Source of the DNA: a virus
IMG/VR virus record: IMGVR_UViG_3300036832_000372
Span: 1 to 54,572 of that record
Strand: one strand, 5' to 3'
Length of the DNA: 54,572 bases
Part shown: one piece after another, positions 3,722 to 52,899 of the stretch
Position numbering within the stretch: position 1 is the first letter of the stretch
Layout: each line of letters opens with the position of its first letter
The notes under the pieces: model-generated
Database searches by the model: none
Told to the model about the DNA's origin: nothing
The model's input: the letters and a program-made list of their open reading frames with translations, nothing else
Made by a program: the position numbers and the translations under genes

Positions 3722-3769
3722 TATCTTCTCAGACCCAGTGGAGAGACCGCCCCCTGGAGTGGGAAGTTG

Positions 3770-4006
3770 ATGAGCTACCTGGGGCCGGTCCGACCGAGGC
3801 TGCGAGTGACTCTTCAGGGAGAGCTGGCGGAGGTCCTCCGCCGGAGGGGCGACAGAGTTCTTCTGACTGACGCTGACGGCCTCGAGTGGTGGATGAAGAT
3901 AGCGCCGTTCCGAGAGGCCGCCGAGCCGATCAGCTGCCGCCTCAACGACGGCGGCCCTTGCCTGGCAATGACGCTCAGGACGTGCCGATGCAGAGAAGGG
4001 GTCTGA
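3770..4006 (+). CDS. Hypothetical small protein
   Basis: The 78-residue product (MSYLGPVRPRLRVTL onward) reads as a small beta-rich protein with LRVTLQGELAEVLRRRGDRVLLTDADGLEWWMKI, then a cysteine-containing end with C-rich RTCRCREGV. GGAG at 3757-3760 serves ATG 3770, or a TTG three bases earlier. No family was recognised. Its stop codon lies inside the left arm of a strong hairpin (3997-4027), so the end of this gene may also be the end or processing point of a transcript. Confidence 0.55.
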   Translation: MSYLGPVRPRLRVTLQGELAEVLRRRGDRVLLTDADGLEWWMKIAPFREAAEPISCRLNDGGPCLAMTLRTCRCREGV

Positions 4007-4027
4007 TGAGGGAAATGTCAGACCCCT
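3997..4027 (+). other. GC-rich hairpin spanning a stop codon
   Basis: AGGGGTCTG at 3997-4005 pairs perfectly with CAGACCCCT at 4019-4027, and an A-T plus a G-T pair extend the stem inward. The loop is about 11-13 bases. The TGA of the preceding gene (4004-4006) is within the left arm. No T-run follows, so it is a candidate factor-dependent terminator or processing hairpin rather than a classic intrinsic terminator. Confidence 0.5.
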
Positions 4028-4083
4028 CAGTGATTCAGCGTAAGGACGGTCAGTAGACCTCAGGATTGTGGTATCTTTTTACC

Positions 4084-4599
4084 ATGATCAAGTTCTTATC
4101 TTGGCGAGAGTCGCCCTTATCTAGGAAGCTGTTCGCTGACACTGGCGGCCGAGGCCGCTACATGATTCATCCCACGGCCGACGGCAGATTTCATCTGCGC
4201 CTCAGCGGATCTCCCGTCGGTATCACCGACTCTGTCACAGAGGCGAAGAGGTTAGCGAGAGATAACTTCAGGGCGATGACTGATGCTCGTGAAGGTGGTT
4301 CTCATCTGGGTGCTCGCCAACGTGGCTGTAGCTCTCTTGCTCATGGCTCGGGGCGACCGAAGGAAGCGGTATCTCCAGGAGTACCGCCGTCAATTGAAGT
4401 CTTCTCGACGCTCGTGAGGAGAGAGGATATGCCAGACGATACCTCGCAGGACCACATTCGCATCCGCATCGACCAGATCCGCGATGTGCGGTACTGGGCT
4501 GGTAGGTTTGGCGTGACAGAGCAGGAGCTGAGAGACGCGGTGGTTAAGGTCGGTACCCTAGTCCGCGACGTCAAGAGTGAGCTAGGCGGCCGCGGCTAG
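4084..4599 (+). CDS. Hypothetical protein, in-frame run-through into a DUF3606 domain
   Basis: From ATG 4084 a single frame stays open to TAG 4597-4599 (171 residues). The first 65 or so residues form a plausible domain with RYMIHPTADGRFHLRLSGSP and a helix VTEAKRLARDNFRAM. Residues about 69-115 look unlike a protein domain and coincide with a better-looking membrane protein in another frame. The last 56 residues are a DUF3606 protein that has its own start. A lost stop from a one-base indel near 4280 would explain this: one frame over, TGA 4281-4283 overlaps the next ATG. No good ribosome binding site precedes 4084. Confidence 0.45.
   Translation: MIKFLSWRESPLSRKLFADTGGRGRYMIHPTADGRFHLRLSGSPVGITDSVTEAKRLARDNFRAMTDAREGGSHLGARQRGCSSLAHGSGRPKEAVSPGVPPSIEVFSTLVRREDMPDDTSQDHIRIRIDQIRDVRYWAGRFGVTEQELRDAVVKVGTLVRDVKSELGGRG
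4283..4417 (+). CDS. Small single-span membrane protein, 44 aa
   Basis: The frame from ATG 4283 to TGA 4415-4417 encodes MLVKVVLIWVLANVAVALLL, a clean transmembrane segment, followed by a strongly basic tail (RGDRRKRYLQEYRRQLKSSRR). It lies out of frame inside the longer 4084-4599 frame. Its codons look far more protein-like than the overlapping frame at the same place. It is followed 11 bases later by the DUF3606 start with a good binding site. The basic tail suggests a cytoplasmic C-terminus. Function unknown; a holin or inner-membrane accessory role is possible but unsupported. Confidence 0.5.
   Translation: MLVKVVLIWVLANVAVALLLMARGDRRKRYLQEYRRQLKSSRRS
4429..4599 (+). CDS. DUF3606 family protein
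   Basis: The 56-residue product matches the small DUF3606 family along its length: a short polar lead MPDDTSQDHIRIRID, then DVRYWAGRFGVTEQELRDAV and KVGTLVRDVKSEL, as in the family's EVRYWxxxFGVSxEELxxAVxxVG core. GAGGAGAGAGG (4416-4426) is a good binding site for ATG 4429. DUF3606 proteins are usually stand-alone, roughly this size, and common in alphaproteobacteria; their function is unknown. The helix pattern has been likened to a small HTH-like or DNA-associated fold, which I cannot confirm here. Confidence 0.75.
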   Translation: MPDDTSQDHIRIRIDQIRDVRYWAGRFGVTEQELRDAVVKVGTLVRDVKSELGGRG

Positions 4600-4603
4600 C
4601 CCC

Positions 4604-4642
4604 GTGCGGGTTGCATTGTCTCGGGGACTCTGCAGCCCGCAC
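4604..4642 (+). other. Strong 12-bp hairpin upstream of a start codon
   Basis: GTGCGGGTTGCA at 4604-4615 pairs with TGCAGCCCGCAC at 4631-4642 with a single G-T pair, leaving a 15-base loop. It sits right after the DUF3606 stop and ends about 5 bases before the GGAGGA binding site of the gene at 4657. No T-tract follows. It could terminate, protect or be cleaved from the transcript, or modulate access to the binding site. Confidence 0.5.
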
Positions 4643-4656
4643 TCTCTGGAGGATCA

Positions 4657-4881
4657 ATGACACCGCTGCAGACGGTCATAACCTATCTGTCAGCATTCAC
4701 GTTAGCGCTCATCACGGCAGGCGTCTTGATACTGCTGCTCGTCAATGCCTGCAGCGCAGGAGATCACCACTGGGTCTGCAGCTACGCATCGCTGTCTAAC
4801 CCGGCGCACAGCGGAAGGCACAGCATAGATCCAGTGGTGACTGGACAGCCGTCGACGGGAGATGGTACTGTCGGGCAATGA
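4657..4881 (+). CDS. Small membrane protein or lipoprotein-like protein
   Basis: The 74-residue product has one hydrophobic segment at about residues 8-30 (ITYLSAFTLALITAGVLILLLV), then NACSAGDHHWVCSYASL and a polar tail. The VNAC at the end of the segment is only a poor lipobox, so a plain N-terminal membrane anchor is more likely. GGAGGA lies just before ATG 4657. It ends ATGA-overlapped with the next small gene. No family was recognised. Small anchored proteins in phage accessory blocks include lysis and superinfection-control proteins, but nothing here distinguishes these. Confidence 0.6.
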   Translation: MTPLQTVITYLSAFTLALITAGVLILLLVNACSAGDHHWVCSYASLSNPAHSGRHSIDPVVTGQPSTGDGTVGQ

Positions 4882-5057
4882 TTAACTTGTCTGAGCATCT
4901 CCCAATGGACTGCAAGGCGGCGGAAGAGTTCATAGAGAAGCGGCGCGCTCAGGAGCGGCGCCTGATGGAGCTTCGAGCTCAAGAGATCGAGGACGACATT
5001 CCACTCGAGAGGAGAGGAACACATGAGCAGGACAGCGGTTCTCGTGAGAGACTCTGA
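4878..5057 (+). CDS. Small charged helical protein, 59 aa
   Basis: A frame from ATG 4878 (overlapping the previous TGA as ATGA) to TGA 5055-5057 encodes MINLSEHLPMDCKAAEEFIE, then a highly charged helix KRRAQERRLMELRAQEIEDD. It covers the gap between two genes and runs 35 bases into the next one. The composition suggests a soluble helix or coiled coil. No family was recognised. The start/stop overlap and lack of any alternative in this gap are the main support. Confidence 0.5.
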   Translation: MINLSEHLPMDCKAAEEFIEKRRAQERRLMELRAQEIEDDIPLERRGTHEQDSGSRERL

Positions 5058-5346
5058 CGGCAAGGACCACATCATCGTCACTAGCAGCATAACGGGCGTG
5101 GACTTCGACCCTGGGAAGCCAGCCGTCCCGGAGCAGCCCGCCGTCGAGGCCAAGGAAGCTAACCCCGGCCGACCCGCCAACGGCGCCGACCCTGGTGAGC
5201 CGCCGACGGCCGCCGTCGAGGCGAAAGAAGCTGTGCCCGCCGACCCTGGTGTACCCCCGACGGCGACGATCAACTACGGCGGCGGCAGCGCCAAGGTCCA
5301 CGCCACGGCGGCTCAGGTCCTCGAGATCCTCAACGCCACAGGATGA
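5023..5346 (+). CDS. Hypothetical protein with Pro/Ala/Glu repeats
   Basis: The 107-residue product starts with a short beta-like domain (TAVLVRDSDGKDHIIVTSS), has a low-complexity middle and ends in a second folded-looking patch, GSAKVHATAAQVLEILNATG. The middle is made of two imperfect copies of a unit carrying AVEAKEA and DPGxPPTA (about residues 40-82). Such linkers separate two small domains or act as spacers. GAGGAGAGGA precedes ATG 5023. No family was recognised. The stop overlaps the next ATG (ATGA). Confidence 0.6.
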   Translation: MSRTAVLVRDSDGKDHIIVTSSITGVDFDPGKPAVPEQPAVEAKEANPGRPANGADPGEPPTAAVEAKEAVPADPGVPPTATINYGGGSAKVHATAAQVLEILNATG

Positions 5347-5609
5347 TCACCGAGCGCCACAGGGTCGAGTGGCACGGAGCTGGCCGCAAGGCTCAGCTGC
5401 AGGCTGACCCTGACTACCCTCACGGTATATCTGTCAATCTGTCTGACTCTGACGAGCGGTCGTGCCAGGTCATCCTGCCGTACCCGGCTCCTGAGTGCGG
5501 CTACTGGCAGGTTACGTGTAGTGAGTGTGGCTTTAAGATAGCCATCTCGGCCGCTGGCCGCGCTGACGACCCCACCGACGTGACCATAGCCTGCAGAGGG
5601 CACGACTGA
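5343..5609 (+). CDS. Conserved hypothetical protein with a four-cysteine patch
   Basis: The 88-residue product has C52, a CxxC at 59-62 (CSEC), and C84, which could bind a metal. The segment PECGYWQVTCSECGFKIAI followed by AGRADDPTDVTIAC resembles a conserved small family seen in alphaproteobacterial phages, pattern CGYxxVxCxxCGxxxAxxxAGRxDDP. Its function is not known to me. It overlaps both neighbours by a few bases, so it is part of the same translational chain. Confidence 0.65.
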   Translation: MITERHRVEWHGAGRKAQLQADPDYPHGISVNLSDSDERSCQVILPYPAPECGYWQVTCSECGFKIAISAAGRADDPTDVTIACRGHD

Positions 5610-6049
5610 TGGCTACCTCTTGGTTCAGCTACGTCCCCTACGCCGTCCGGGCGATGCAGTACCGCGGCGAGATCGAGGCGCTCGTCGAGGAAGCTATCCC
5701 CGTCATCAGGAGAGCTCTCACCATGGTCCCGGAGCTTCAGAAGCTGTTCGACAAGGCCAAGGCTCTAGCCGTGAAGATTGCGCCCGAGCTGTTCAAGTCT
5801 TCGAGCCAGCAGGAGCAGCTGCCGCTCGGTCCAGCTCCGCGGACAGTGAGCCCATCGACGTCGTCGAAGTACGACGTCGAGTGGCTCCAGACGACGCTCA
5901 ACCACAAGACGCCAGGGATGACGCCCCTCGCAATCGACGGGATCTACGGCCCTGGCACCAAGGCTCGAGTCGAGGCGTATCAGCAGGCTCACGGTCTCAA
6001 TGTCGACGGCTGGGCCGGCATCGAGACGATGACTTCGCTCCTCAGTTAG
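5609..6049 (+). CDS. Peptidoglycan-binding-domain protein
   Basis: The 146-residue product ends in a PG_binding_1-type three-helix domain (about residues 88-146) with VEWLQTTLN, AIDGIYGPGTKARVEAYQ and GLNVDGWAGIETMTSLL, closely matching the family's LQxxLxxxG...VDGxxGPxTxxAVxxFQ pattern. The N-terminal 75 residues are helical (IEALVEEAIPVIRRALTMVP) and no hydrolase motif is visible. It could be an accessory cell-wall-binding protein or act with another enzyme; calling it an endolysin would need a catalytic domain that I do not see. It starts in a TGATG overlap. Confidence 0.8.
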   Translation: MATSWFSYVPYAVRAMQYRGEIEALVEEAIPVIRRALTMVPELQKLFDKAKALAVKIAPELFKSSSQQEQLPLGPAPRTVSPSTSSKYDVEWLQTTLNHKTPGMTPLAIDGIYGPGTKARVEAYQQAHGLNVDGWAGIETMTSLLS

Positions 6050-6193
6050 CAATTAGCGCTGCGGCGCTGATCGAGTCGGGCTGATCCGGCTCGCACTCAG
6101 GGAGGTGTCCCTCGGCGTCCAATTCACGGGTGACACGAGAATCAGCACCAGCTGGGCGCCTCCACAGGCGCCTGGCTCCTCACGGAGGCACCT
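6050..6193 (+). other. Intergenic gap holding several hairpins
   Basis: No gene is supported here. The strongest structure is AGCTGGGCGCCT (6150-6161) with AGGCGCCTGGCT (6166-6177), a 12-bp stem including two G-T pairs and a CCAC loop. A smaller AGCGC-TGCG-GCGCT stem lies at 6055-6068 just after the stop codon. There is no T-run after either. The large hairpin ends about 6 bases before the GGAGG of the next small gene. Confidence 0.5.
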
Positions 6194-6319
6194 ATGAAAG
6201 ACAAGAAGACGACTGAGAAGAAGCCGCAGCCCGTAGAGGAAGAGGTCGAGATCGGTGTCCCGACTCTCACTGTGAACCGCCCATCTGACAGACGCAGAGC
6301 CGATGACGACGGTAGGTGA
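6194..6319 (+). CDS. Small charged protein, 41 aa
   Basis: ATG 6194 is preceded by GGAGG at 6184-6188 with normal spacing. The frame runs to TGA 6317-6319 and encodes a lysine-rich start (MKDKKTTEKKPQPVEEEVEI), then GVPTLTVNRPSDRRRADDDGR. The product looks disordered. No family was recognised. The very good binding site is the main evidence; it sits between a strong hairpin and the next coiled-coil gene. Confidence 0.5.
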   Translation: MKDKKTTEKKPQPVEEEVEIGVPTLTVNRPSDRRRADDDGR

Positions 6320-6359
6320 GTGGATCGACTTCGCATTCCACCTTATAAGAGGTGACCCG

Positions 6360-6761
6360 ATGCCTATGATCCTCATCGACTCTGCCGAGTGGAATAAGAT
6401 GGTCAACAAGATCAATTCACTAGGAGTGAAAGTCGACACTCTCCTGGCGCAGTCAAAACCCGTCGACATGACACGATTGGAGGAACTCATGGCTGACACT
6501 CACAAGTCGCTCGATGACATCATCTCTGACATCCAGGAGCTCAAGACGCGTGAAGAGGGCTTGATCGAGCTGGTAAGCGGCGTCCGTCAGCAGATTGACG
6601 CTCTCGGCTTGCCACCGGACCAGCAGGCCAAGGTCGATGCCATCTTCGACGCGGTCGAGGAGCGCAAGCAGGCGATCCAGAACGCCATCGACGCCAACAC
6701 GCCTCCACCGACGACTCCTCCTCCGACAGATCCGAATGCGCCCCAGGTGAATCCGCTCTGA
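6360..6761 (+). CDS. Coiled-coil protein with proline-rich tail
   Basis: The 133-residue product is largely coiled coil (MTRLEELMADTHKSLDDIIS, then QELKTREEGLIELVSGVRQQ), followed by QQAKVDAIFDAVEERKQAIQ and a TPPPTTPPPTDP tail. ATG 6360 is chosen because AGAGGTGA lies just upstream; ATG 6303 would add 19 residues and overlap the previous small gene. Similar short coiled-coil proteins with PTP tails are frequent in phage structural operons. No enzymatic motif is seen. The role, perhaps a virion or membrane-associated accessory, is unknown. Confidence 0.65.
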   Translation: MPMILIDSAEWNKMVNKINSLGVKVDTLLAQSKPVDMTRLEELMADTHKSLDDIISDIQELKTREEGLIELVSGVRQQIDALGLPPDQQAKVDAIFDAVEERKQAIQNAIDANTPPPTTPPPTDPNAPQVNPL

Positions 6762-6773
6762 GGTCGTCAGGGT

Positions 6774-6824
6774 CGGCCGCGTCGCCTTATCCCATTACCG
6801 CCTTTCCCCAAGGTGACGCGGCTG
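6774..6824 (+). other. Long GC-rich hairpin between two genes
   Basis: GCCGCGTCGCCTT (6776-6788) pairs with AAGGTGACGCGGC (6810-6822) over 13 positions with one G-T pair. Two further pairs at the base extend it to 6774-6824. The loop is 21 bases and pyrimidine-rich. It occupies most of the gap before the gene at 6835. No T-run follows the right arm. This is the longest stem I found in the window. Confidence 0.55.
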
Positions 6825-6834
6825 ATGGATCGAG

Positions 6835-7176
6835 ATGATGAGATTAGCTGCTATCATAGTTCTTGCGATGTGCCTCCCGGTCTCTGCTCAGAACCGTGGA
6901 GCCACCAACATGGCCGTCGGTCAGGTCAGCATAACTACGGCTGCCACTCGAGTAGTAGCGTCGCGGCCAGATCGCATCCGTGCCGTCCTCACCAACGGCA
7001 CGACTAGCAACGTGTGGTGCGGTCCTGACAGCACGGTGACCATCGCGACTGGTGACGTGCTGGAGGGCACCTCCAGCCAGAGCACCGGTCACATAAAGAC
7101 CTACGACTATCAGGGCGACATCTGGTGCGTCTCGACTAGCTCCAACAACGTCATCACTTTCCTAGAGTTATACTGA
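6835..7176 (+). CDS. Small exported protein, possible virion decoration domain
   Basis: The 113-residue product has a typical Sec signal, MMRLAAIIVLAMCLPVSAQN, with likely cleavage after VSA. The mature part, VGQVSITTAATRVVASRP through RIRAVLTNGTTSNVWCGPDS and an aromatic beta-rich end, resembles small phage beta-sandwich proteins of the pattern VSVTTxATxIV...VTIxNxGTxxVxxG. Those are usually virion associated, so the signal peptide is unusual. Start may be ATG 6835 or 6838. It lies directly ahead of the portal gene. Confidence 0.6.
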   Translation: MMRLAAIIVLAMCLPVSAQNRGATNMAVGQVSITTAATRVVASRPDRIRAVLTNGTTSNVWCGPDSTVTIATGDVLEGTSSQSTGHIKTYDYQGDIWCVSTSSNNVITFLELY

Positions 7177-7177
7177 C

Positions 7178-8659
7178 ATGGGGATCATCACCAGGTTCGC
7201 GAGCCCGATCTTTGACTCCTTCAGTAATCTCATCACTGGGCTGGGCGTCCTCGGAGTCGACAAGAACGAGAGCACCTACTGGGTGTTCAAGCCGCTCGAC
7301 CTCAACGAGCTCGAGGCGGCGTACCGGTGCGACTGGCTCGCCAGGAAGATCATCGAGATCCCGGCCTACGACTGCACCAGGGCGTGGCGCCAGTGGTTCG
7401 GGACCAAGGAGCAGATCACCGCCCTCGAGGAGACGGAGAGGACGTTCGGCATCCAGCGGAAGATGCTCTCGGCTCTGGAGAAGTCGCGCCTCTACGGCGG
7501 CGCTGCCATGGTCCTGGGCGTCGACAAGGGGACATTCCAGGAGGAGCTGAACCTCGACGAGGTCAAGAGGGGCGACCTCAAGTTCATCCACGTGGTGTCG
7601 CGTCACATGATCGCGGCAGGGCCGCGGGTCCTCGAGATCACCAGCCCGTGGTTCGGCGAGCCCACTTACTACACGCGCAGCAACTCAGTCACCGTAGATC
7701 CCCCCGGCGGTGTTCAGCCGGTCGGTGAGCCGACCATGGGCCAGCGGCCCGGCGACATGCTGTACATCCACCCTAGTCGGGTCGTGCGCCTGGTCGGCCA
7801 CGAGTACCCTGACATGGAGCGGAGCCAGGACGCTTGGGGCGACTCTGTCCTCATGCCCGTCCAGGATGCGGTGAAGCGAGCCGGGATCGTCCAGTCCGCA
7901 CTGACGACGATCATCCACGAGTCAAAGCTCGACGTCATCAAGGTCCCTGGCCTCACCGCCAAGATGCAGACGGACGTGGGCACGCAGGCTGTACTGCAGA
8001 GATTCGCGCAGGCCAACCTCGGGAAGAGCGTCGTCAAGGCTCTCCTGATCGACAGGGAAGAGGAGTGGGAGCGGAGCCACCTGACGCTGAGCGGCTGGGA
8101 CGGCCTGATGAACGCGTTCTTCCTGGTGTGCTGCGCCGCCGCCGACATCCCGGCCACGCGGTTCATGGGCCGCGAGCCGTCAGGCATGAACTCTACCGGC
8201 GACAGCGACACACGGAACTACTACGACCGCCTCGCGGCAGACCAGGTCGTGAAGTACACGCCAGCGCTCCAGCGGCTCGACGAGGTGATGATCAGGCACA
8301 CCTTCGGCAGCCGCGACCCCGACATCACTTACAAGTGGAACCCGCTCTACCAGCTGAGCGACACGGACAAGGCCGACGCCGAGCTGAAGGCGGCTCAGGC
8401 GTTCAAGATCGACGTCGACTCGGGCATCATCAGTCCGCACGTCCTGCAGGCTGGTCGGCAGGGGCATCTCGTGACCTCTGGCTGGCTGTACCCGGGCATC
8501 CAGACGGCGATCTCCGACGAGGCTGAGTGGGATGCCGAGGCCGGCTTAGAGTCATCTCGCAGCGCTAGCAAACCCGCTGCTCCAGGTAAAGACGAACCTC
8601 CTCCTAACACTGGCGGCGAGCCCGGGAAGGGCAGCCGCGGTGGCAACGATGAGCCCTAG
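7178..8659 (+). CDS. Portal protein (DUF1073 / Phage_portal_3 type)
   Basis: The 493-residue product is the dodecameric head vertex through which DNA is packaged. Family hallmarks include CDWLARKIIEIPAYDCTRAW at about residues 51-70, SRLYGGAAMVLGV at about 103-115, and the SGMNSTGDSDTRNYYD segment near residue 336. Length fits the family. The C-terminal 45 residues are a Pro/Gly/Ser-rich disordered tail. It is followed with a 20-base overlap by the Mu F-like gene, the usual order portal then F. Confidence 0.9.
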   Translation: MGIITRFASPIFDSFSNLITGLGVLGVDKNESTYWVFKPLDLNELEAAYRCDWLARKIIEIPAYDCTRAWRQWFGTKEQITALEETERTFGIQRKMLSALEKSRLYGGAAMVLGVDKGTFQEELNLDEVKRGDLKFIHVVSRHMIAAGPRVLEITSPWFGEPTYYTRSNSVTVDPPGGVQPVGEPTMGQRPGDMLYIHPSRVVRLVGHEYPDMERSQDAWGDSVLMPVQDAVKRAGIVQSALTTIIHESKLDVIKVPGLTAKMQTDVGTQAVLQRFAQANLGKSVVKALLIDREEEWERSHLTLSGWDGLMNAFFLVCCAAADIPATRFMGREPSGMNSTGDSDTRNYYDRLAADQVVKYTPALQRLDEVMIRHTFGSRDPDITYKWNPLYQLSDTDKADAELKAAQAFKIDVDSGIISPHVLQAGRQGHLVTSGWLYPGIQTAISDEAEWDAEAGLESSRSASKPAAPGKDEPPPNTGGEPGKGSRGGNDEP

Positions 8660-10652: not shown

Positions 10653-12215
10653 ATGCCGCTGACCAAGAAGGGTAAGAAGATCAAGAGGTCGCTGTTCGGC
10701 TCGTACGGCAAGAAGACGGGCGAGCGCGTCTTCTACGCCATGCGCAACTCGGGTCAGATCTCCGGCGTCGACAGGCGCCGTCGCAGGAGTGGATCATCAT
10801 TCGAGGGAGAGGTCGAGTACGACCCGTTCGGCCGCCAGGTCGCGACTTACGAGGTCGACCCCGACGGCACCGTCGTCGAGTACGACCCGTTCGGCCGCCT
10901 GGTCTCAACTTACGAGGAGGAAGACTCCGTGCTCAATCCAGTGTTCGCCGTCATAGGCGACGTCAGAGTCGAGCCGCCGACTAAGGTCCAGCTCTACGAC
11001 GCGATCGAGATCGACGACGCCGCCAAGGTCTCCTTCACCGAGGACGGCTTCCTCAAGGCGATGCCGCGCATCGCTCGGACTGGCGTTCAAGTCTACGGAG
11101 GAGACGAGTGTGGCATCGACTTCGCGGACGTCGTCAAGGTCTACCGGCCTCCGTCGGCTGTGTTCGACTCTAAGGCGATCCACAGCTATACACATCTTCC
11201 TACGACTCTCGAGCACCCCGACAGGCCAGTCACCACCGACAACTGGAAGGAGCACGCCACCGGGGAGACCGGCGACGAGGTCCTCAGGGACGGCGGCACG
11301 GTGAGAGTCCCGATGATGCTGCGAGACTCTAAGGCGATCGCAGCGTGGAAGGACGGCACCAAGAAGCAGCTCTCGGTCGGCTACACGTGCGACCTCGTGT
11401 GGGCTCCTGGTGTAGTCCCGCACGGAGAGATTCACGCTGGAGAGGCGTACGACGCTATCCAGACCAACATCAGGGCAAACCACCTCGCTCAGTGCGCCGC
11501 TGCGAGAGGTGGCCCAATCCTCTCGATCGGCGATAGCACAAAGGAGAACGGTATGAACGCCCCAGTCCTGAAGACCGTAATGGTGGACGGCATCCAGTGC
11601 GAGATGACGGACACCGCGGCGCAGCTCGTCCAGAAGACGATCGCTACCTACCAGGCTAAGATCGACGCCTTCAAGAAGAAAGACGAGGACGACGATGAGG
11701 AGATGGAGGACGCCAAGAAGCAGATCTCCGCTCTCGGCGACACCATCAAGGCGAAGGACGCCGAGATCGTGACTCTCAAGAAGGCCGTCGAGGACGCTCG
11801 GTTGAAGCCTGAGCAGATCGATGCCATGGTGAGGGATCGTGCTGACGTATTTTCGAAAGCCAAGCTCGTTCTTGGTGACTCATACAAGTTTGAGGGAAAG
11901 ACTGTTGAGGACGCTCGGCGCGCTGTCGTGAGTGCTCACCTCGGCGACGTCGCCAAGAGCTGGGACGACAACCAGGTCAGGGCCAGCTTCGACAGCATCA
12001 TCGCTATGCTGCCGAAGAACCAGACCCAGCGGGGCACCATCGACCACGCGGTCTACGTGTTCGCTGGCCGACCTGGGTACGTCGAGCAGACCAACCCGCA
12101 GGCGATCAGGGACGCCGCCTACGCTGACTCGGTCCGCGAGCTGAACGACGCCTGGAAGCCCCAGGCAGTTCGCGACGCCGAAGCGGCCGCTCGTCGTGCT
12201 GCCGGCAGCTACTAA
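10653..12215 (+). CDS. Prohead protease-scaffold fusion (DUF2213)
   Basis: The 520-residue product matures the capsid and supplies the scaffold. Residues 12-40 carry the SYGKKTGERVFYAMRNSGQI motif seen in several phage head proteins. Residues about 95-300 are DUF2213, with conserved LEHPDRPVT (H188), QLSVGYTCD (S241) and RANHLAQ (H277) as likely catalytic or structural positions. Residues 300-400 are a charged coiled coil (KKKDEDDDEEMEDAKKQISA), the scaffold. Residues 54-91 hold a tandem duplication, EYDPFGR twice. A strong internal start at 11553 suggests a separate scaffold product. Confidence 0.85.
   Translation: MPLTKKGKKIKRSLFGSYGKKTGERVFYAMRNSGQISGVDRRRRRSGSSFEGEVEYDPFGRQVATYEVDPDGTVVEYDPFGRLVSTYEEEDSVLNPVFAVIGDVRVEPPTKVQLYDAIEIDDAAKVSFTEDGFLKAMPRIARTGVQVYGGDECGIDFADVVKVYRPPSAVFDSKAIHSYTHLPTTLEHPDRPVTTDNWKEHATGETGDEVLRDGGTVRVPMMLRDSKAIAAWKDGTKKQLSVGYTCDLVWAPGVVPHGEIHAGEAYDAIQTNIRANHLAQCAAARGGPILSIGDSTKENGMNAPVLKTVMVDGIQCEMTDTAAQLVQKTIATYQAKIDAFKKKDEDDDEEMEDAKKQISALGDTIKAKDAEIVTLKKAVEDARLKPEQIDAMVRDRADVFSKAKLVLGDSYKFEGKTVEDARRAVVSAHLGDVAKSWDDNQVRASFDSIIAMLPKNQTQRGTIDHAVYVFAGRPGYVEQTNPQAIRDAAYADSVRELNDAWKPQAVRDAEAAARRAAGSY
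10812..10899 (+). repeat. 63-bp tandem duplication inside the protease gene
   Basis: A 25-base exact match at 10812-10836 recurs at 10875-10899, offset by 63 bases (21 codons), and similarity continues a little past each copy into an ACTTACGAGG match. It encodes VEYDPFGR twice, so the reading frame is kept. The near identity at the DNA level suggests a recent duplication. Confidence 0.85.
11553..12215 (+). CDS. Internal in-frame scaffold protein start
   Basis: Inside the DUF2213 gene, AAGGAG at 11541-11546 stands 6 bases before ATG 11553, which is in frame and encodes Met 301. The resulting 220-residue product would be MNAPVLKTVMVDGIQCEM followed by the charged coiled coil and the C-terminal half, with no protease domain. 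Phage lambda makes its scaffold Nu3 in this nested way from gene C. The binding site is better than that of the full gene, so abundant scaffold from this start is likely. This is inferred, not shown. Confidence 0.6.
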   Translation: MNAPVLKTVMVDGIQCEMTDTAAQLVQKTIATYQAKIDAFKKKDEDDDEEMEDAKKQISALGDTIKAKDAEIVTLKKAVEDARLKPEQIDAMVRDRADVFSKAKLVLGDSYKFEGKTVEDARRAVVSAHLGDVAKSWDDNQVRASFDSIIAMLPKNQTQRGTIDHAVYVFAGRPGYVEQTNPQAIRDAAYADSVRELNDAWKPQAVRDAEAAARRAAGSY

Positions 12216-38381: not shown

Positions 38382-40298
38382 ATGGGAACTGCTCCAGTCT
38401 TTGGCCTTCAATTCATCCAGCAAGACGACCAAGCGATGCCGGTCATCGGCGCCAACATGGACGTCATCGGCATCATCGGGCCGTCCTCGACGGCCGACCC
38501 GGAGATATTTCCCGAGAACACGCCAGTCCTCTTCTTCTCCAACGACACCGTCATGCTCTCTCACCTCGGGGCCGACGGCTACATTCCTGACGCGATCAAC
38601 GCGATCAACGCTCAGCTCGCGGACTTCCAGATAGCCGCTCAGCTGGTGATCGTCAGGACGCCGTACGGCGACAGCCTCGTCTCTGAGACGATGAAGCTCC
38701 AGCAGACCATCGCTCGCATCATGGGCGACTCGGTCCTCGGCACCGGCCTGTACGCGTTCCTCAAGGCTCCGAACACACTGTACTGCACGCCGAGGATCAT
38801 CATCGCGCCCGGGTACACCGGCCAGATGGCGAACTCCCTCGACACGCTGACGATCGGCGTCCCCGGCGTCGGGTACATCCCCGGCCAGCGATACGACATG
38901 ACGTTCGCGCTCGGGAGTGGAGAGCAGAACCTCACCACCGCAGTCCTGCCGCAAGCGCACGCCGTGGCTGACCCGAATGGGCACATCGGCGAGAACGAGC
39001 TGTTCATCGACACCTGGGGCGCCTGGTTCACCGTCGCTCCGACGGCTACTCTCCCGGCTCCCGACGGAACTCCCAAGCCGGCGTCGCAGGCGGTCGGTCA
39101 GTTCATCTTCAACGCTCAGCCCGGAGTGGGCTCGAAGATCACCATCAACTCACAGGACGTCACCTTCATCGCTGCCGCCGGTACGCCAACGGCTCACCAG
39201 GTCAACCTCGGAGCTAATCTCTCCGCGACCATCGACAACCTGGTCACCTACCTGATGGGGACTACAGGTCAGGCAGACCCCAACATCGGCCTCTGCACCT
39301 ACCAGAAGATCACCTCGACCTACCTCAGCATGAACGTGACTTCGGTGGCGGCCGCTGCCGCAGCCAACGACATCACGCTGGCGACGACCGTAGTCGGCTG
39401 TCAGTGCTCTCCTACCCTCCAGGGCGGAGCCGACGCCGAGGTCTCGACCCAGGCCACCGTGATGACGACGATGGCGCTCGGAGCCAACCCGGTCTGCGCC
39501 AACATGACTGGCGTCCTCGACACGCTGATCGCCCACGCCATCGTCGAGAGCGCGGGGACCTCGATGATCGCCGACGAGAACTGGAGGACCACTCTCAACT
39601 CCCAGAGGCTCATAGGCCTGTCAGGGGGCGTCAAGATCCTCGACCCGCAGACGGGCGACATCGTGGTGATGCCGCTGGCTCCGCGGATGGCCGGGGCCCT
39701 GGTCGCCGAGGACTTCAGGACCGGGTACCCGTTCCACTCGTGCGCTAACCGCGCGGTTCAGGGCATCGTCGGGCCCGCGAGGTCCATCGCGTTCTCGCTG
39801 ACTGACGGCGAGACCGAGGGCCAGATGCTGCTCGGAGCTAACCTCGGGATCGTCGCCAGGGGCCTGATCGGCGTCGAGAGCGCCATCAGCTCCGGCGGCT
39901 TCATCCTCATCGCCACCGACAACATGGGTGACGACGAGCTGTGGCGCATGTACAACGTCAAGAGAGGGCGGGACTTCATCCACCTGTCGCTGATGCCAGC
40001 CCTGCGGACCTACCTCGGCAGGACTAACATCGACCGGCAGACCGTAGCCAACGTCGAGGAGACCATCGCTCAGTGGCTCGGGCAGCTGACGGCTCTCCAG
40101 CAGATCCTCGGCTACAAGGTCACGTTCTCCGGGAGCCTCAACACCCCCGAGGAGATCAGGCTGGGTCACCTGACCGTGAGCTTCGCGGCCGAGGAGCCGC
40201 CCGTCCTGAAGAGGATCACCACCATGAGCGCCCGGTACAAGCCCGCCATCGACGCCATGGTCGCTCAGCTGGCCGAGCAGCTCGTGTTCAGCGGCTGA
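38382..40298 (+). CDS. Contractile tail sheath protein
   Basis: The 638-residue product has sheath features: an N-terminal MDVIGIIGPSSTADPEIFPE, a middle with PRIIIAPGYTGQMANSLDTL, a C-terminal TDNMGDDELWRMYNVKRGRD and NTPEEIRLGHLTVSFAAEEP. Sheath subunits slide and contract to drive the tube through the envelope. Residues about 240-352 are an inserted beta module (GQFIFNAQPGVGSKITINSQ, VNLGANLSATIDNLVTYLM, AAAAAANDITLATTVVG) related to that in the capsid cement protein. GGAGAAC lies just upstream of ATG 38382. Confidence 0.9.
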   Translation: MGTAPVFGLQFIQQDDQAMPVIGANMDVIGIIGPSSTADPEIFPENTPVLFFSNDTVMLSHLGADGYIPDAINAINAQLADFQIAAQLVIVRTPYGDSLVSETMKLQQTIARIMGDSVLGTGLYAFLKAPNTLYCTPRIIIAPGYTGQMANSLDTLTIGVPGVGYIPGQRYDMTFALGSGEQNLTTAVLPQAHAVADPNGHIGENELFIDTWGAWFTVAPTATLPAPDGTPKPASQAVGQFIFNAQPGVGSKITINSQDVTFIAAAGTPTAHQVNLGANLSATIDNLVTYLMGTTGQADPNIGLCTYQKITSTYLSMNVTSVAAAAAANDITLATTVVGCQCSPTLQGGADAEVSTQATVMTTMALGANPVCANMTGVLDTLIAHAIVESAGTSMIADENWRTTLNSQRLIGLSGGVKILDPQTGDIVVMPLAPRMAGALVAEDFRTGYPFHSCANRAVQGIVGPARSIAFSLTDGETEGQMLLGANLGIVARGLIGVESAISSGGFILIATDNMGDDELWRMYNVKRGRDFIHLSLMPALRTYLGRTNIDRQTVANVEETIAQWLGQLTALQQILGYKVTFSGSLNTPEEIRLGHLTVSFAAEEPPVLKRITTMSARYKPAIDAMVAQLAEQLVFSG

Positions 40299-47292: not shown

Positions 47293-47841
47293 ATGCCCAA
47301 CACAGCTCAAGCAGGCCTGCCAGACTTTCGCACGACGAGGCCGGACACCACTGGCTGGTACGCTCCCTCGCTCAGCGTCGCTGGCGAGGGCAGCACGAAC
47401 AGGCCTGTCCTCTACAGCTGGGGGCATGTTCTGTTCCAGGTGATGCCCCTCAACGTCCACGAGGTCGACTACGAGTCAGCGACGGACTGGGCGCACAAGG
47501 AGATTGCGGGGGCGCCGATCTACCGCGAGTGGGTCGGTGAGAACGATGAATTAGTTCACCTGAGGGGACGGATCTTCCCCTACCGCATCGGCGGCATGAA
47601 CGAGCTCGAGAGCATGGAGTCGATGCGTCGGAAGGGGGTGCCGAACCCTCTGATCAGAGGTAACCCGGCGATGATGCTGGGATGGTTCGTGTGCGAGCGC
47701 CTCGTTCGCTCCCACACCTTCCTGTCCACTCAGGGCATCGGGCAGCAGGTGACGTTCGAGGCGGTGATGGCGCGGATGCCAGTCCCCGCGTCGGACCAGT
47801 ACTTCGCTCAGATGTGGCAGACCAACGGAGCTGGAGGGTAG
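47293..47841 (+). CDS. U: Tail protein U-like
   Basis: The 182-residue product follows P2 gpU: VLYSWGHVLFQVMPLNVHEV near the N-terminus, then ATDWAHKEIAGAPIYREWVG, ENDELVHLRGRIFPYRIGGM and MRRKGVPNPLIRGNPAMMLG, with WFVCERLVRSHTF before a short end. gpU acts at the top of the tail (terminator or assembly). It lies between tape measure and X, as in P2. Start 2 bases after the tape-measure stop. Confidence 0.85.
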   Translation: MPNTAQAGLPDFRTTRPDTTGWYAPSLSVAGEGSTNRPVLYSWGHVLFQVMPLNVHEVDYESATDWAHKEIAGAPIYREWVGENDELVHLRGRIFPYRIGGMNELESMESMRRKGVPNPLIRGNPAMMLGWFVCERLVRSHTFLSTQGIGQQVTFEAVMARMPVPASDQYFAQMWQTNGAGG

Positions 47842-47842
47842 C

Positions 47843-48115
47843 ATGGCGATCACCGGATTCGAGCTCGTCCAGGTGACGACGGAGTATGTCACAGCAGACT
47901 TGATCATCTGGAAGCGATACATGAACAAGGCGTTCGGCATGGTCGAGCTGATGCTCGACGCCAACCCCCAGCTCGCCTTCGCTCACCGGTCATCGCCATT
48001 CATCCCGGTCGGGACCTACCTGAGAGTGCCGATTGACCCTGGACTCATAGCGGGGCGGCCTCAGCCGAAGAGTCAGGACAGCCTGTGGACTGACAAGCTA
48101 GGCTACACGATCTGA
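47843..48115 (+). CDS. X: Tail protein X-like (LysM-like)
   Basis: The 90-residue product matches P2 gpX: YVTADLIIWKRYMNKAFGMV, ELMLDANPQLA and SPFIPVGTYLRVPI, the LysM-like fold that includes D.xLxxIaxxxxG...v..i...NP.l. Such proteins bind the tail hub or the cell wall. It lies 1 base after U, and its stop overlaps the D-like start (TGATG), the order U-X-D as in P2. Confidence 0.85.
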   Translation: MAITGFELVQVTTEYVTADLIIWKRYMNKAFGMVELMLDANPQLAFAHRSSPFIPVGTYLRVPIDPGLIAGRPQPKSQDSLWTDKLGYTI

Positions 48116-49368
48116 TGGCGCTCACCCTCACTCTCGCTGACCCAGAGATCTTCGATCCTTATTCCTCCCTGGCAGACCCGATCCAGTCGAACCGCCTCCG
48201 CGCCTACGTCAAGATCGAGATCGGCAGCGGCAGCTACTTCATGGACGTCACCAGCAAGGTCGACCCTCACCTGGTCATGGTGAGGATACTGACCGGTGCG
48301 CACATCGAGGACTACCAGTGCGAGATCGAGCTCGACGACAGGGACGGATCACTCCCTATCCCGCCGATCGAGTCGCCGCTGAACATCAGCCTCGGGTGGG
48401 TGGGGGAGAATCTCCATCTAGTGTGGGAAGGCGTCATCCACGACATCGAGCACGGGTTCGGCCGCAAGCAGGGCGGCCGCCGGATGTGGATACACGGTCT
48501 CGGCGCGGAGATGCTCGGAGGCGGCAAGGAGCCGCAGAACAATCACTGGGGCGAGGGAGCCAAGGACGGTCAGGAGAGCGGCATCAAGCTTCCCGTCTCG
48601 ACCGCCCTGAAGGCTGCCGCCAAGGAAGCGAACCACGAGATAGAGGTGCACCCGGACTTCGACAAGACCGAGCTCCAGAAGGACTGGTACCAGCAGGCCG
48701 GCGAGAGCTACTACCACTTCGCCAAGCGGCTGGCCGACGAGTACGGAGCGGTGTTCCGCGTCAAGGCCGGCAACAAGGGCCAGTTCACCAAGCAGGGCCA
48801 GAACATCGACGGCACGCCCACACCGAACGTCATGGCAGTGTGGGGCAAGAATCTGATCGGCTGGAGAGTCAGGCCCGTCTCGACGCGACAGATGTGGGCC
48901 CAGACCAGCGGACACTTCTTTGACGTCGGAAAGTCGATGTGGGATCAAGTCAAGAGCGCTGTCACGGCGTCAACGCCGTTCAACTTCGCCTCAGCTGGGT
49001 TCCAGCGGGCTCAGCCTGCAGCCAACCAGGAGCAGGCCAGCGGACAGAACCAGGGTGACGACGACGGCATCGGTCAGCAGCAGGGTCAGGGCCGCATCGT
49101 CATCAACGGCGAGCCGACCGCTCAGGGCAACTGCATCGTGCAGCTGTCTGGCGCTAGGCCCGGCGTCGACGGCTCGTACTGGGCTCAGACGATCGAGCAC
49201 ATCTACAGCAGGCAGGGCTACGTCACGTGGTGCGACGTCCAGGCGGTGCAACTCACTGACGCCGAGCTCGCCTATCTTCACTTCAAGCCGCCGCTCCCGC
49301 CGCCGCGACCGCCTGAGGCGCCTCAGGCGCCGCCCGCCGTACCGCCTAATCTGCAACAAGGAGTCTAG
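48115..49368 (+). CDS. D: Late control protein D-like baseplate hub
   Basis: The 417-residue product has gpD features: a first domain with VDPHLVMVRILTGAHIEDYQ and CEIELDDRDGSLPIPP, WVGENLHLVWEGVIHDIEHG, then the hub region ESYYHFAKRLADEYGAVFRV. gpD-type proteins form the central hub around the spike. After residue about 320 the chain is Gln/Gly-rich and ends in a proline-rich tail (PPLPPPRPPEAPQAPPAVPP), unlike the compact P2 protein. It closes the P2-like tail module. Confidence 0.85.
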   Translation: MALTLTLADPEIFDPYSSLADPIQSNRLRAYVKIEIGSGSYFMDVTSKVDPHLVMVRILTGAHIEDYQCEIELDDRDGSLPIPPIESPLNISLGWVGENLHLVWEGVIHDIEHGFGRKQGGRRMWIHGLGAEMLGGGKEPQNNHWGEGAKDGQESGIKLPVSTALKAAAKEANHEIEVHPDFDKTELQKDWYQQAGESYYHFAKRLADEYGAVFRVKAGNKGQFTKQGQNIDGTPTPNVMAVWGKNLIGWRVRPVSTRQMWAQTSGHFFDVGKSMWDQVKSAVTASTPFNFASAGFQRAQPAANQEQASGQNQGDDDGIGQQQGQGRIVINGEPTAQGNCIVQLSGARPGVDGSYWAQTIEHIYSRQGYVTWCDVQAVQLTDAELAYLHFKPPLPPPRPPEAPQAPPAVPPNLQQGV

Positions 49369-49370
49369 AA

Positions 49371-49745
49371 ATGGTCGCTTCTCTAGAAGACGTGGTGCTC
49401 GACTTCGGCCTGAACACTCTCCACGCGAACAGTTCGTTCCTCTCGATCTGCGCCGCTGAGCCGACGACGATAGCTGTCGCGTCCAGCACTGGTCTCCTCG
49501 GATACAAGAGCTGGGGCGCCGGTGGCGTGTTTGGAGCGATGGCTCCAGGATCTCCCAACGGGAGGCAGGTGACGTCGAGCCCGATCACTGACGGCACCAT
49601 CACGACCTCTGGCACTGCCTCGTGGTGGGCCGTCTACGCCGCGGGCACTCTGCACGCCCACGGCACTCTGTCGGCCGCCCAGGTCGTCACCGCCGGCAAC
49701 ACGTTCACGTTGACGTCATTCAGCATCCGCATACCCAACCAGTGA
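49371..49745 (+). CDS. Conserved phage virion-type protein
   Basis: The 124-residue product resembles a common phage structural protein. It has a beta-rich C-terminal part with TITTSGTASWWAVYAAGTLH, AHGTLSAAQVVTAGNTFTLT and SFSIRIPNQ, matching the pattern GTATxxAlxd...LLa...l...q.VtaGntftvtsf.i. The N-terminus (LEDVVLDFGLNTLHANSSFL) looks like an attachment segment. Such proteins occur near fibre or baseplate genes. ATG 49371 has AAGGAG at 49359-49364. Confidence 0.7.
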   Translation: MVASLEDVVLDFGLNTLHANSSFLSICAAEPTTIAVASSTGLLGYKSWGAGGVFGAMAPGSPNGRQVTSSPITDGTITTSGTASWWAVYAAGTLHAHGTLSAAQVVTAGNTFTLTSFSIRIPNQ

Positions 49746-49753
49746 AGGAAGTC

Positions 49754-51625
49754 ATGCTCGAAGCAACACTCAGTCCGAACACACACGAGTGCCGCCACGG
49801 CAAGTTCACTATCTTCAACGAGGATGAGCTCGTCGGGATGTCGCTCGCCATGTACGGCGAGTACTCCGAGGGTGAGGTCGTCGTCTTCCAGACGTGCCTC
49901 CGCGAGGGGAACGTCGTCGTCGAGGTCGGGGCTAATATCGGTGCCTTCACAGTGCCGATGGCTAAGATCGTCGGCGAGAGCGGCATGGTCATCGCGTTCG
50001 AGGCGGCGATGGCCAACGTGTCGCTGCTCCACGCTAACGTCAAGCAGAATGACCTGTCCAACGTTGCAGTCATCCCCGTCGCTGCCAGCGACAGGGCTGG
50101 TGAGCTCGAGGTGTCGCGGCAGGACGCTCTCCACGCCTACACCAGGAGAGACATCAACACTGGCGCCTTTCGAGTGCCGTGCCGCACCATCGACAGCCTG
50201 AGCTTGCCGAAGTGCAACTTCATCAAGATCGACGTCGATCGCCACGAGATCCAGGTCCTCAGGGGCGCCGAGGAGACGATCAAGAGGTGCAGGCCGATCA
50301 TCTACGTGGAGAACGAGGACCAGGGGAAGAGCGAGGCTCTGATCGCCTGGCTGGTCGACCACGGCTATCGCCTCTACTGGCACAGGCCGAGCCAGTACAA
50401 CCAGAAGAACTTCCGCGGCGAGAAGCGGAACGTGTTCGGCACGCTGATCTCGATCATGATGCTGTGCGTCCCTGACGACGATTGGAGCTACGACGTCCGC
50501 GGTCTCGACGAGGTGGCGGACATCCGTCAGGATGACGATATGTTCAACCGGGAGATCGTCAGGTACGCGAAGATAGTCCGGAAGCGGCCAGACGACCTGA
50601 TGAGCCGCCTGCTGCAGGCGCACTACCTCAACCTGATGCAGTTCAGCTCTGAGGCCAGAGACCTGATCGCCGAGAACCTAGCGATCGATCCGAGTCACCA
50701 GGCGTCGAGGAACATCAAGGCGCTGATGGACCTCCAGGACGGGAACTGGCACGAGGGCTGGCAGGGGTACGAGCTCAGGTACGGTCACGCTAACCTTCAC
50801 CTCTTCGGCGGCCACCGTCAGCACCTCGACGCCGATGGCAGGAAGATCCCTCGCTGGAACGGCTCCCCCACTCAGGAGCCAGTGCTGATCTGGACCGAGC
50901 AGGGCTTCGGCGATCAGATCATGTTCGCCAGGTTCATGAGGCACGTCCTCAAGCGAGCGCCTCACGCGTTCATGGAGGTGCAGCCTGAGCTGTTCGAGCT
51001 GTTCGAGTACTCTGACTCGACCCTCGGCTTCGAGTTCTACGACGCCGTATTCCGATCTCGGCGGTACCTGCCACAGTACACCAGGCACCTGCCGTTACCG
51101 TCGGTGCCAGCCACTCTCGACGCCGACGAGAGCATGATCAGGATGACCGAGCCGTACCTCATCGTGGACCCCGACACCGTCGCCAACTGGACCTTCGGCG
51201 GCAGGAACCCGTTCGCCGCAGGCCGCGACCCCCTCAACGGGACACGGGTCGGCCTGTGCACCGTCGGGTCCCTGACCTCGGAGAGACCCTACACCAGGGA
51301 CCTCCCGGCGGATCTGGTAGCCGAGTTCGTCAAGCAGCACGGGCCGTTCTTCTCGCTGGAGAGCTCCGGTCAGTTCGAGTCGTTCGCCACCACGGCCGCC
51401 GCCATCATGGCCCTCGACCTGGTCATCACGGTCGACACTTCGATCGCTCATCTCGCGGGGGCGCTGGGGAAGCCAGTGTGGCTGCTCCTCTCGTGGGACC
51501 CCGACTGGCGGTGGGGGCTCTACGGAGAGAAGACGATATGGTACCCGTCGATGAGGATCTTCCGGCAGCCGAAGTTCAGAGACTGGAAGTCAGTCCTTGA
51601 GAGGGTCGGTGCGGAGCTGGCGTGA
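49754..51625 (+). CDS. FkbM methyltransferase-TPR-glycosyltransferase fusion
   Basis: The 623-residue product has three parts. Residues about 20-215 are an FkbM-type SAM-dependent methyltransferase, with motif I VVVEVGANIGAFT (54-66) and FIKIDVDRHEIQVLRGAE (157-174). Residues about 265-345 look like TPR helices (LLQAHYLNLMQFSSEARDLI, DGNWHEGWQGYELRY). Residues 374-623 resemble GT9/TPR-type glycosyltransferases: IWTEQGFGDQIMFARF, FFSLESSGQFESFATTAAAI, VDTSIAHLAGALGKPVWLLL and WDPDWRWG. FkbM enzymes methylate sugars. ATG 49754 has AAGGA 4 bases upstream; GTG 49742 is an alternative. Probable substrate is phage fibre or host surface glycan, which is inference. Confidence 0.85.
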   Translation: MLEATLSPNTHECRHGKFTIFNEDELVGMSLAMYGEYSEGEVVVFQTCLREGNVVVEVGANIGAFTVPMAKIVGESGMVIAFEAAMANVSLLHANVKQNDLSNVAVIPVAASDRAGELEVSRQDALHAYTRRDINTGAFRVPCRTIDSLSLPKCNFIKIDVDRHEIQVLRGAEETIKRCRPIIYVENEDQGKSEALIAWLVDHGYRLYWHRPSQYNQKNFRGEKRNVFGTLISIMMLCVPDDDWSYDVRGLDEVADIRQDDDMFNREIVRYAKIVRKRPDDLMSRLLQAHYLNLMQFSSEARDLIAENLAIDPSHQASRNIKALMDLQDGNWHEGWQGYELRYGHANLHLFGGHRQHLDADGRKIPRWNGSPTQEPVLIWTEQGFGDQIMFARFMRHVLKRAPHAFMEVQPELFELFEYSDSTLGFEFYDAVFRSRRYLPQYTRHLPLPSVPATLDADESMIRMTEPYLIVDPDTVANWTFGGRNPFAAGRDPLNGTRVGLCTVGSLTSERPYTRDLPADLVAEFVKQHGPFFSLESSGQFESFATTAAAIMALDLVITVDTSIAHLAGALGKPVWLLLSWDPDWRWGLYGEKTIWYPSMRIFRQPKFRDWKSVLERVGAELA

Positions 51626-52899
51626 GCGTATTCCTCCACGACCTCGGGTCGACGAGCTCAACGAGCTCGAGAGTATCTATCCCTGTCGCTGGACCTATCC
51701 CCGTCGGTAGCCTCATCTGCGTCGGCGTGTCGCTGTACACTTCTGGTGTTGTCACCGGAACTCCGTCAGTCACCGACAACTCAGGCAACACTTACAAGTT
51801 AGCCGCCTCGAAGCTGCTCCAGTCGTCAGCGCAGAATGCTCCGAGTCTATGGGCCGGCTTCTTCTATGCCCCTAACTGCAAGGGAGTAAATCCTAACACA
51901 CAGATCACCTTCGACTTCAATCCGACGAATACTTCAGCATCTGTAGTGATGTCCGCAGGGTGGGCTAGTGGCATCGTCGCTCTGGTCGATCCTCTCTCCA
52001 CCGTGAAGATGAACAGTGGTAACACCGTCTCCAAGACGACAGTGACGGTCAGCTCGATCGTATCTCTGACGCCCGGTGACCTCATGTGGGGCTTCCTCGG
52101 CATGTCTCCGTGGGACATCAACGTCCAGGCAGCCTACAACGAGGACACTAGCCTCAGGTGGGCGTCGCCACCGTTTCAGAGGTGGTACTCCTACGACGGT
52201 AAGATCGGTCTCTCCGGTCCCACTGTCATCAACCCGAACGGCACTGGCATCGTCACCTGGACGCCGCGCATCCCCACGAGCGACTTCTGGATCGCGATCA
52301 TGTGCGGATTCAAGGTCGCTGAGACGACCAACCTCAGCGCTGTCGGGTACGACGTGGGGCGGCCAGAGATAGGGCCCACTGGGTTCTCAGTCTACGGCAA
52401 CTCGGTGCCTAGGGGGATCACCGTCGGGTCGCCGTTCATCGAGGCGCCCAGCACCAACATATCGAATCCGCAGGTCGTCTGCCTGACTCACCGCGACGAC
52501 GGCATCATGGAGAGCTTGTTCACCAACGTGAACGTCGACTTCACGCTGGAGACAGACTCCAACTCTATCGTCGGCCGAACTGACCCTGGCCGCGGTCAGG
52601 TTCAGCGCGTCACTGTCCAGTATCCTCTAGTCATGGGCAGCGGAGCTATCACTCTCGACTCCACCGGCGCCATGGGGGACATCCCCAACCGGGTCGTCGT
52701 CCTCGAGACACAGATTCAGCAGATGGTCCTGCAGTCCGCTGTCTTCACTCAGGCGCTCGTCGACATCAGGAACCAGATCGCAGATCTCCAGAGAGCGGTG
52801 TCTCAGCTCCAGTCTGCCGTCAACGTCAGCAACATCTACATCCTGCGGCAGCCGATCACTACCGCGTCTCCGACGATCGGCAAGCCAACGCTCGGGTAA
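51622..52899 (+). CDS. Tail fibre-like protein with TVGSP motifs
   Basis: The 425-residue product begins at GTG 51622, overlapping the transferase stop as GTGA. The first 230 residues are beta-rich and related to the protein at 36638. Then VGYDVGRPEIGPTGFSVYGN and PRGITVGSPFIEAPS carry the TVGSP motif shared with the I-like protein at 30139. Residues 360-410 form a coiled coil (RVVVLETQIQQMVLQSAVFT, IRNQIADLQRAVSQLQSAV) that could trimerise, and the end again has SPTIGKPTLG. A fibre role fits this layout. Confidence 0.7.
   Translation: MSVFLHDLGSTSSTSSRVSIPVAGPIPVGSLICVGVSLYTSGVVTGTPSVTDNSGNTYKLAASKLLQSSAQNAPSLWAGFFYAPNCKGVNPNTQITFDFNPTNTSASVVMSAGWASGIVALVDPLSTVKMNSGNTVSKTTVTVSSIVSLTPGDLMWGFLGMSPWDINVQAAYNEDTSLRWASPPFQRWYSYDGKIGLSGPTVINPNGTGIVTWTPRIPTSDFWIAIMCGFKVAETTNLSAVGYDVGRPEIGPTGFSVYGNSVPRGITVGSPFIEAPSTNISNPQVVCLTHRDDGIMESLFTNVNVDFTLETDSNSIVGRTDPGRGQVQRVTVQYPLVMGSGAITLDSTGAMGDIPNRVVVLETQIQQMVLQSAVFTQALVDIRNQIADLQRAVSQLQSAVNVSNIYILRQPITTASPTIGKPTLG

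Follow-up and report, generated by a model that had tools for sequence, protein, structure and literature searches.

A phage tail-operon protein joining an FkbM methyltransferase to a glycosyltransferase: a candidate FlmG-like writer of virion glycans

Why would a contractile-tailed phage encode, among its tail genes, one protein with the makings of both a methyltransferase and a glycosyltransferase, and what would such a protein modify? The question is raised by virus record IMGVR_UViG_3300036832_000372, which in its entirety forms the stretch of DNA analysed here (the window, 54,572 bases). A first-pass annotation of the sequence had described an FkbM methyltransferase, TPR helices and a glycosyltransferase fused in one frame, and had suggested that the protein modifies tail fibres or changes the host receptor so as to block superinfection. 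Genes for the terminase, portal, head protease and major capsid protein lie early in the window; the portal is ~35% similar to many phages, and no tRNA was found in the window. In the head maturation protease frame (10653-12215), residues 56-86, N-terminal to the protease domain, match the Pfam family RHS_repeat (5.8e-05). The features on which the argument turns are as follows.

38382-40298, + strand: tail sheath (phrog_23, 4.4e-37), which marks the phage as a myovirus
47293-47841, + strand: gpU-like tail protein (PF06995, 5.2e-21)
48115-49368, + strand: gpD-like baseplate hub/tail protein (phrog_52 tail protein, 8.9e-20)
49371-49745, + strand: v124, a 124-aa fibre/neck-type virion protein and proposed substrate (AlphaFold2 and Foldseek matches, linkage to the fusion)
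49754-51625, + strand: FkbM methyltransferase, TPR-like and GT9-like glycosyltransferase fusion of 623 aa (P0001)
49787-50482, + strand: FkbM (Methyltransf_21) domain of P0001, residues 12-243 (Pfam 1e-19, TIGR01444 1.8e-28)
50540-50785, + strand: TPR-like helical hairpins of P0001, residues 263-344 (AlphaFold2), the presumed substrate-binding part
50837-51622, + strand: GT9-like GT-B transferase module of P0001, residues 362-623 (PF01075, 21.6 bits)
51622-52899, + strand: putative fibre/adhesin of 425 aa (position, C-terminal coiled-coil-like stretch, relatives)

The fusion reads without interruption from an ATG at 49754 to a stop at 51623-51625, giving the 623 residues first described. Its ATG lies 8 bases past the v124 stop and is directly preceded by the Shine-Dalgarno-like GAAGGAAG, and its 3' end overlaps the next gene in the four bases GTGA (GTG at 51622, TGA at 51623-51625). 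The short gap, the Shine-Dalgarno-like sequence and the overlap place the gene for translational coupling in the tail operon. The flanking genes had been called a virion-type gene and a fibre. For the former the description holds by predicted fold: the AlphaFold2 model of v124 (pLDDT 89) finds, through Foldseek, the necks of Bas63 and Sf14, the tail fibre of phage 7-7-1 and viral tail proteins, so that v124 appears fibre- or neck-like. The latter matched no Pfam or PHROG family and is a putative fibre from its position, its relatives and its coiled-coil-like C-terminal stretch, with ITTASPTIGKPTLG at the end.

Judged by profile scores well over the curated cut-offs, the N-terminal 243 residues of P0001 are an FkbM methyltransferase: Methyltransf_21 matches residues 57-207 with 71.7 bits (cut-off 22.7) and TIGR01444 scores 99.8 bits (cut-off 37.7). 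The motifs of this domain comprise the SAM loop VEVGANIGAF (residues 56-65), an acidic E83 and FIKIDVDRHE (156-165), and O-methyl transfer is its predicted activity. The helical repeats proposed for the middle of the protein are present in the AlphaFold2 model as antiparallel helices (263-277, 282-294, 298-311, 316-328 and 332-344). By sequence their TPR character is weak: no Pfam TPR family matches P0001, and the profile of the fusion family weakly matches designed TPR proteins at residues 241-333 (E 0.5-0.9). The bacterial relatives of P0001 have unmistakable TPRs ahead of the transferase.

The C-terminal module is a divergent one. Glyco_transf_9 (PF01075) matches residues 545-594 with 21.6 bits, just under the cut-off of 22, and is weakly matched in 10 of 13 fusion family members. 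The motifs on which the GT9-type assignment had been made are present and conserved (EQGFGD387QIMF, SERPYTR515D and VD561TSIAH566LAGALGKPVW), so that the fusion has both the GT9-type N-terminal GD motif and the C-terminal D-T/S-x(2-3)-H motif. When the GT part was used for a profile search of the PDB, the sole glycosyltransferase recovered was ADP-heptose heptosyltransferase II (1psw, E 0.44), to which both motif regions align, the N-terminal one not significantly; a TPR-rich profile (A4) was swamped by TPR proteins and was of no use for this part. The donor and linkage of so divergent a domain are not predictable from its sequence. The structure prediction for the whole protein, one of the checks initially suggested, gave a confident model (pLDDT 85, pTM 0.76), for which the best PDB match by fold is the FkbM protein 2py6, the matches listed being filled by methyltransferases.

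Other phages have the same fusion. It occurs in a single frame in more than 20 virus contigs at 42-95% pairwise identity, with v124 upstream in the linked loci, and across 21 aligned fusions 113 positions are invariant. In the FkbM half, G59, A60, N61, G63 (the GANxG of the SAM loop), E83, K158, D160 and E165 are unchanged in 21/21; in the GT half, G384, G386, D387, E510, R511, D561, T562 and H566 are invariant and R515 is kept in 17/18 copies, late alignment positions resting on 13-18 copies because some contigs are cut. In most comparisons with unsaturated dS, dN/dS is ~0.1-0.3 in the FkbM, TPR and GT parts. A chance or frame artefact, or mis-joining, is excluded by the number of contigs that share the fusion and by this purifying selection. 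By the same comparisons both enzymatic halves are maintained by selection, and the presence of two intact, conserved domains supports the original proposal that a single protein of the tail operon has both activities. That P0001 sits among tail genes would also suit a part of the virion, or a factor in its morphogenesis, that has lost catalysis in one domain or in both, for example a sugar-binding accessory; the SAM-loop and GT-B motif residues, however, stay invariant down to 42% pairwise identity and both enzymatic halves are under purifying selection, which makes such a role highly improbable.

We were interested in where the two halves occur outside this phage clade. The closest bacterial proteins are TPR-glycosyltransferases of ~30% identity, whose homology spans residues 254-622 of P0001. 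One lies directly after a flagellin gene (Aristophania), and two are in flagellar loci, those of Rhodovastum and of Salipiger (pPABY5), the latter with an FkbM gene immediately before it. In Azospirillum the relative is found beside a gene for a giant calcium-binding protein and the HlyD and ABC exporter genes of type I secretion, and in Arcobacter p121 it belongs to an operon, SapC-FkbM-TPR/GT-ABC-HlyD, that follows the gene for a giant RTX-like protein. The surroundings of other relatives were uninformative. The Arcobacter plasmid operon (CP146529.1, 77156-91743; locus L035) combines the giant RTX-like protein, SapC, FkbM, the TPR-glycosyltransferase and type I secretion, and its gene content suggests that giant adhesins may be glycosylated in this way outside phages.

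The two activities are also fused in bacteria, in the opposite order: single-frame TPR-GT-FkbM proteins occur twice in Niveispirillum and in G008 and G272. The Niveispirillum pair (NZ_CP025613.1; loci L033/L062) is in tandem, the proteins being 899 and 855 aa long. Among phages, the reverse-order fusion is found in a structural operon of L024 (7395-10208), between the portal and capsid genes, where it overlaps a second glycosyltransferase-like gene (6472-7575). In phage MW202512 the TPR-GT and FkbM genes are separate and lie 3' of the capsid gene, L025 has the two side by side, and L023 has, next to its capsid gene, a GT9-like gene followed by FkbM. The occurrence of both fusion orders, together with repeated adjacency, indicates a single product to which both activities contribute. 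The bacterial pairs and fusions (Arcobacter p121, Salipiger pPABY5, Niveispirillum, G008 and G272) unite the same two activities as the phage fusion, the annotated pairs in flagellar or type I secretion loci. The bacterial fusions, however, are ~900 aa long with FkbM at the C-terminus, whereas FkbM is N-terminal in the phage clade; with FkbM at opposite ends, the bacterial and phage fusions look independent. A recent pick-up from a host was rejected: a search of genome contigs gave only a distant FkbM, and among the matches listed in 385 genomes of one bacterial class there was no FkbM-first fusion, those matches being separate genes or having the TPR-GT-FkbM order. A protein of Burkholderia cenocepacia H19 that looked fusion-like at first was rejected, as it was not readable as a fusion.

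The architecture of the transferase half has a characterized counterpart. FlmG, a 596-aa protein of Caulobacter crescentus, is a cytoplasmic O-glycosyltransferase of flagellins composed of a TPR part and a GT-B part (Ardissone et al. 2020, PMC7591256). Its TPR part binds the flagellin substrate, and the enzyme is required and sufficient for flagellin O-glycosylation in hosts that make the sugar (PMC7591256); evidence cited there places the modification of the flagellin FljK on four threonines. In both FlmG and P0001 a GT-B transferase follows immediately on a TPR region within one protein of ~600 aa. P0001 differs in its extra N-terminal FkbM domain, in its much shorter and weak TPR region and in having a virion-type neighbour, not flagellin; the donor of FlmG is pseudaminic acid. 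The transferase half of P0001 fits an FlmG-like enzyme by analogy, the likeness being one of architecture and of FlmG-like genes beside flagellin.

Tail modification, one of the two purposes first suggested, gains support from the flagellin and adhesin contexts of the relatives and from inheritance with a fibre-like virion gene. The other purpose, a glycosylated and methylated LPS, capsule or flagellin that would block superinfection by related phages, draws on the fact that GT9 members are typically LPS heptosyltransferases; host flagellin is a conceivable substrate too, TPR-GT relatives acting in flagellar loci. There is also precedent in temperate phages, some of which alter the host serotype (PMC12619734). 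Against this, the gene lies in a late structural operon where it is placed for translational coupling, it is tightly inherited with the virion gene v124, and a tyrosine integrase was looked for and not found, either in the window or in nine further records with the fusion, several of them >60 kb, an absence that is suggestive only as the records may be incomplete. The late structural operon, the lack of a detected integrase and the protein substrates of the relatives together disfavour a superinfection block, and we regard modification of the host surface as improbable.

A search with v124 alone recovered 41 loci, in which linkage was scored where the contig continues downstream. The fusion lies 3' of v124 in all 24 testable loci with v124 at least 55% identical, in 2 of 5 at 50-54% identity and in 0 of 9 below that; five near-identical contigs inflate these counts, and the independent cases number ~20. 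The pair is kept in seven loci in whose flanks no homologue of gpU, gpX or gpD was detected (L013, L018, L085, L093, L094, L097 and L100) and in three records without a sheath gene, and in L016/L102 it has a position downstream of the fibre gene and is still together. We entertained the idea that v124 and the fusion are a mobile cassette of substrate and writer, in which a phage protein bearing an O-methylated glycan travels with the bifunctional enzyme dedicated to it between tailed phages that are otherwise unrelated; this we hold tentatively, with the odds somewhat against it.

Several loci show what else can surround the pair. In two of them an endonuclease-like gene separates v124 from the fusion (an HNH gene in L002, 9198-9998, and a NUMOD3-bearing gene in L003, 9261-9998), where the window has only 8 bases; similar-looking ORFs are found in L009 (2984-3481), L005 (7526-7978) and L010 (4301-4756), and the site at which the tail operon is interrupted varies. 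Around v124 and the fusion in L018 are GT9-like, DUF5672 and 2OG-Fe(II) oxygenase genes (3516-4670, 4722-5516 and 7156-7728), which may make up a longer glycan pathway that includes hydroxylation. In L014, three tail proteins (3883-5154, 5165-6172 and 6176-8464) each join a diverged v124-like domain to a different larger part. Lying thus within tail-region proteins of 335, 423 and 762 aa, v124 looks like a reusable tail module.

In the tree, the v124 proteins linked to the fusion group together as a single branch (support 99/96). Five of their residues, E6, I77, T79, W85 and H97, do not vary among 23 linked copies, whereas 11 unlinked copies lack them or rarely have them. Residues 74-86 read DGTITTSGTASWW; here the model predicts a hairpin of strands 72-77 and 81-90, with T79 at its tip as a candidate acceptor site. 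Common ancestry may explain the residues shared by linked v124s equally well as acceptor function.

The same loci bear on whether the enzyme instead targets the fibre encoded after it (51622-52899) or other adhesins, perhaps through SPxIGxP repeats, with v124 only an adaptor in the same cassette. The start of the fibre gene overlaps the stop of the fusion, bacterial relatives adjoin giant repetitive adhesins, and the fibres of fusion loci end in, or repeat, an SPxIGxPxL motif; short motifs resembling it are seen at the start of the fusion protein in L009, and L013 and L014 have them in small ORFs immediately before the fusion. SPxIGxPxL-like motifs, placed at the end or repeated up to 20 times, were seen at the C-terminus of the window protein and in L002 (13213-16524), L014 (8472-11375) and L010 (10636-12945), and the repeats have no relevant Pfam family match. 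Across the fusion loci, however, the fibre is 25-48% identical or undetectable, against 50-84% for v124, and the pair stays together on the far side of the fibre gene in L016/L102. We therefore judge the fibre an unlikely principal target, though a more serious contender than the host surface.

We favour, at a probability of roughly 60%, the reading that P0001 is a dedicated cytoplasmic virion-glycosylation writer that places an O-methylated sugar on a tail protein, with v124 as its preferred substrate. The TPR-like helices would bind the newly made tail protein in the cytoplasm, and the GT9-like GT-B domain would move a sugar from a host nucleotide-sugar donor onto a Ser or Thr of that protein. 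The fused FkbM domain would then O-methylate the added sugar, capping it. FkbM domains act on varied O-nucleophiles, which makes the sugar a presumed methyl acceptor. The preferred substrate would be the v124 encoded immediately upstream, possibly at the TITT hairpin (T76-T79), with the downstream fibre as a second candidate, and the phage may gain stability, masking or changed binding. In this scheme we infer the enzymatic activity, the identity of the sugar, the acceptor residue, the order of the two steps and the benefit to the phage.

Parts of such a system have been described separately. In the TibC/AAH autotransporter heptosyltransferases, a heptosyltransferase acts on serines of a surface protein and not on LPS (PMC4358343). 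TibC is not known to have an FkbM or TPR part. TibC structures gave no PDB match to the GT profile up to E 10, and no BAHT (TibC/AAH) family model was among the 25 best NCBIfam models for P0001. As for phages, passages of PMC12363180, citing Freeman et al. 2023, describe glycosyltransferases of mycobacteriophages Che8, Corndog and Myrna that modify the phages' own capsid and tail proteins, with glycosylation of the capsid and tail tube shielding from antibodies; those passages concern capsid and tail-tube proteins and do not mention a fused methyltransferase. In phage phi3LM21 the FkbM gene p49 follows two tail-fibre genes (PMC5537653); it and the FkbM methyltransferases of XacN1 and DLP6 have the FkbM domain of P0001, but as stand-alone proteins.

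Phage virion glycosylation, FkbM genes beside phage tail fibres and protein heptosylation by a heptosyltransferase are therefore already known. What is new, by the literature searched, is the fused, substrate-paired, FlmG-like form of phage virion glycosylation: the open-access literature searched held no description of a phage FkbM-TPR-GT fusion, of its FlmG-like nature or of its cassette with a virion gene. Nor did it describe the broader association to which our reading, if true, would also point, in which TPR-glycosyltransferases are linked with FkbM enzymes across bacterial flagella, adhesins exported by type I secretion and phage virions. If our reading is true, tailed phages of environmental bacteria would carry an FlmG-like protein-glycosylation system in the tail operon, with methylation fused to it and the likely substrate next door. 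P0001 and v124 would then be a defined enzyme-substrate pair with which to ask what tail glycans do, be it in adsorption, stability or masking, and the fusion itself would be a compact bifunctional glycosylation tool.
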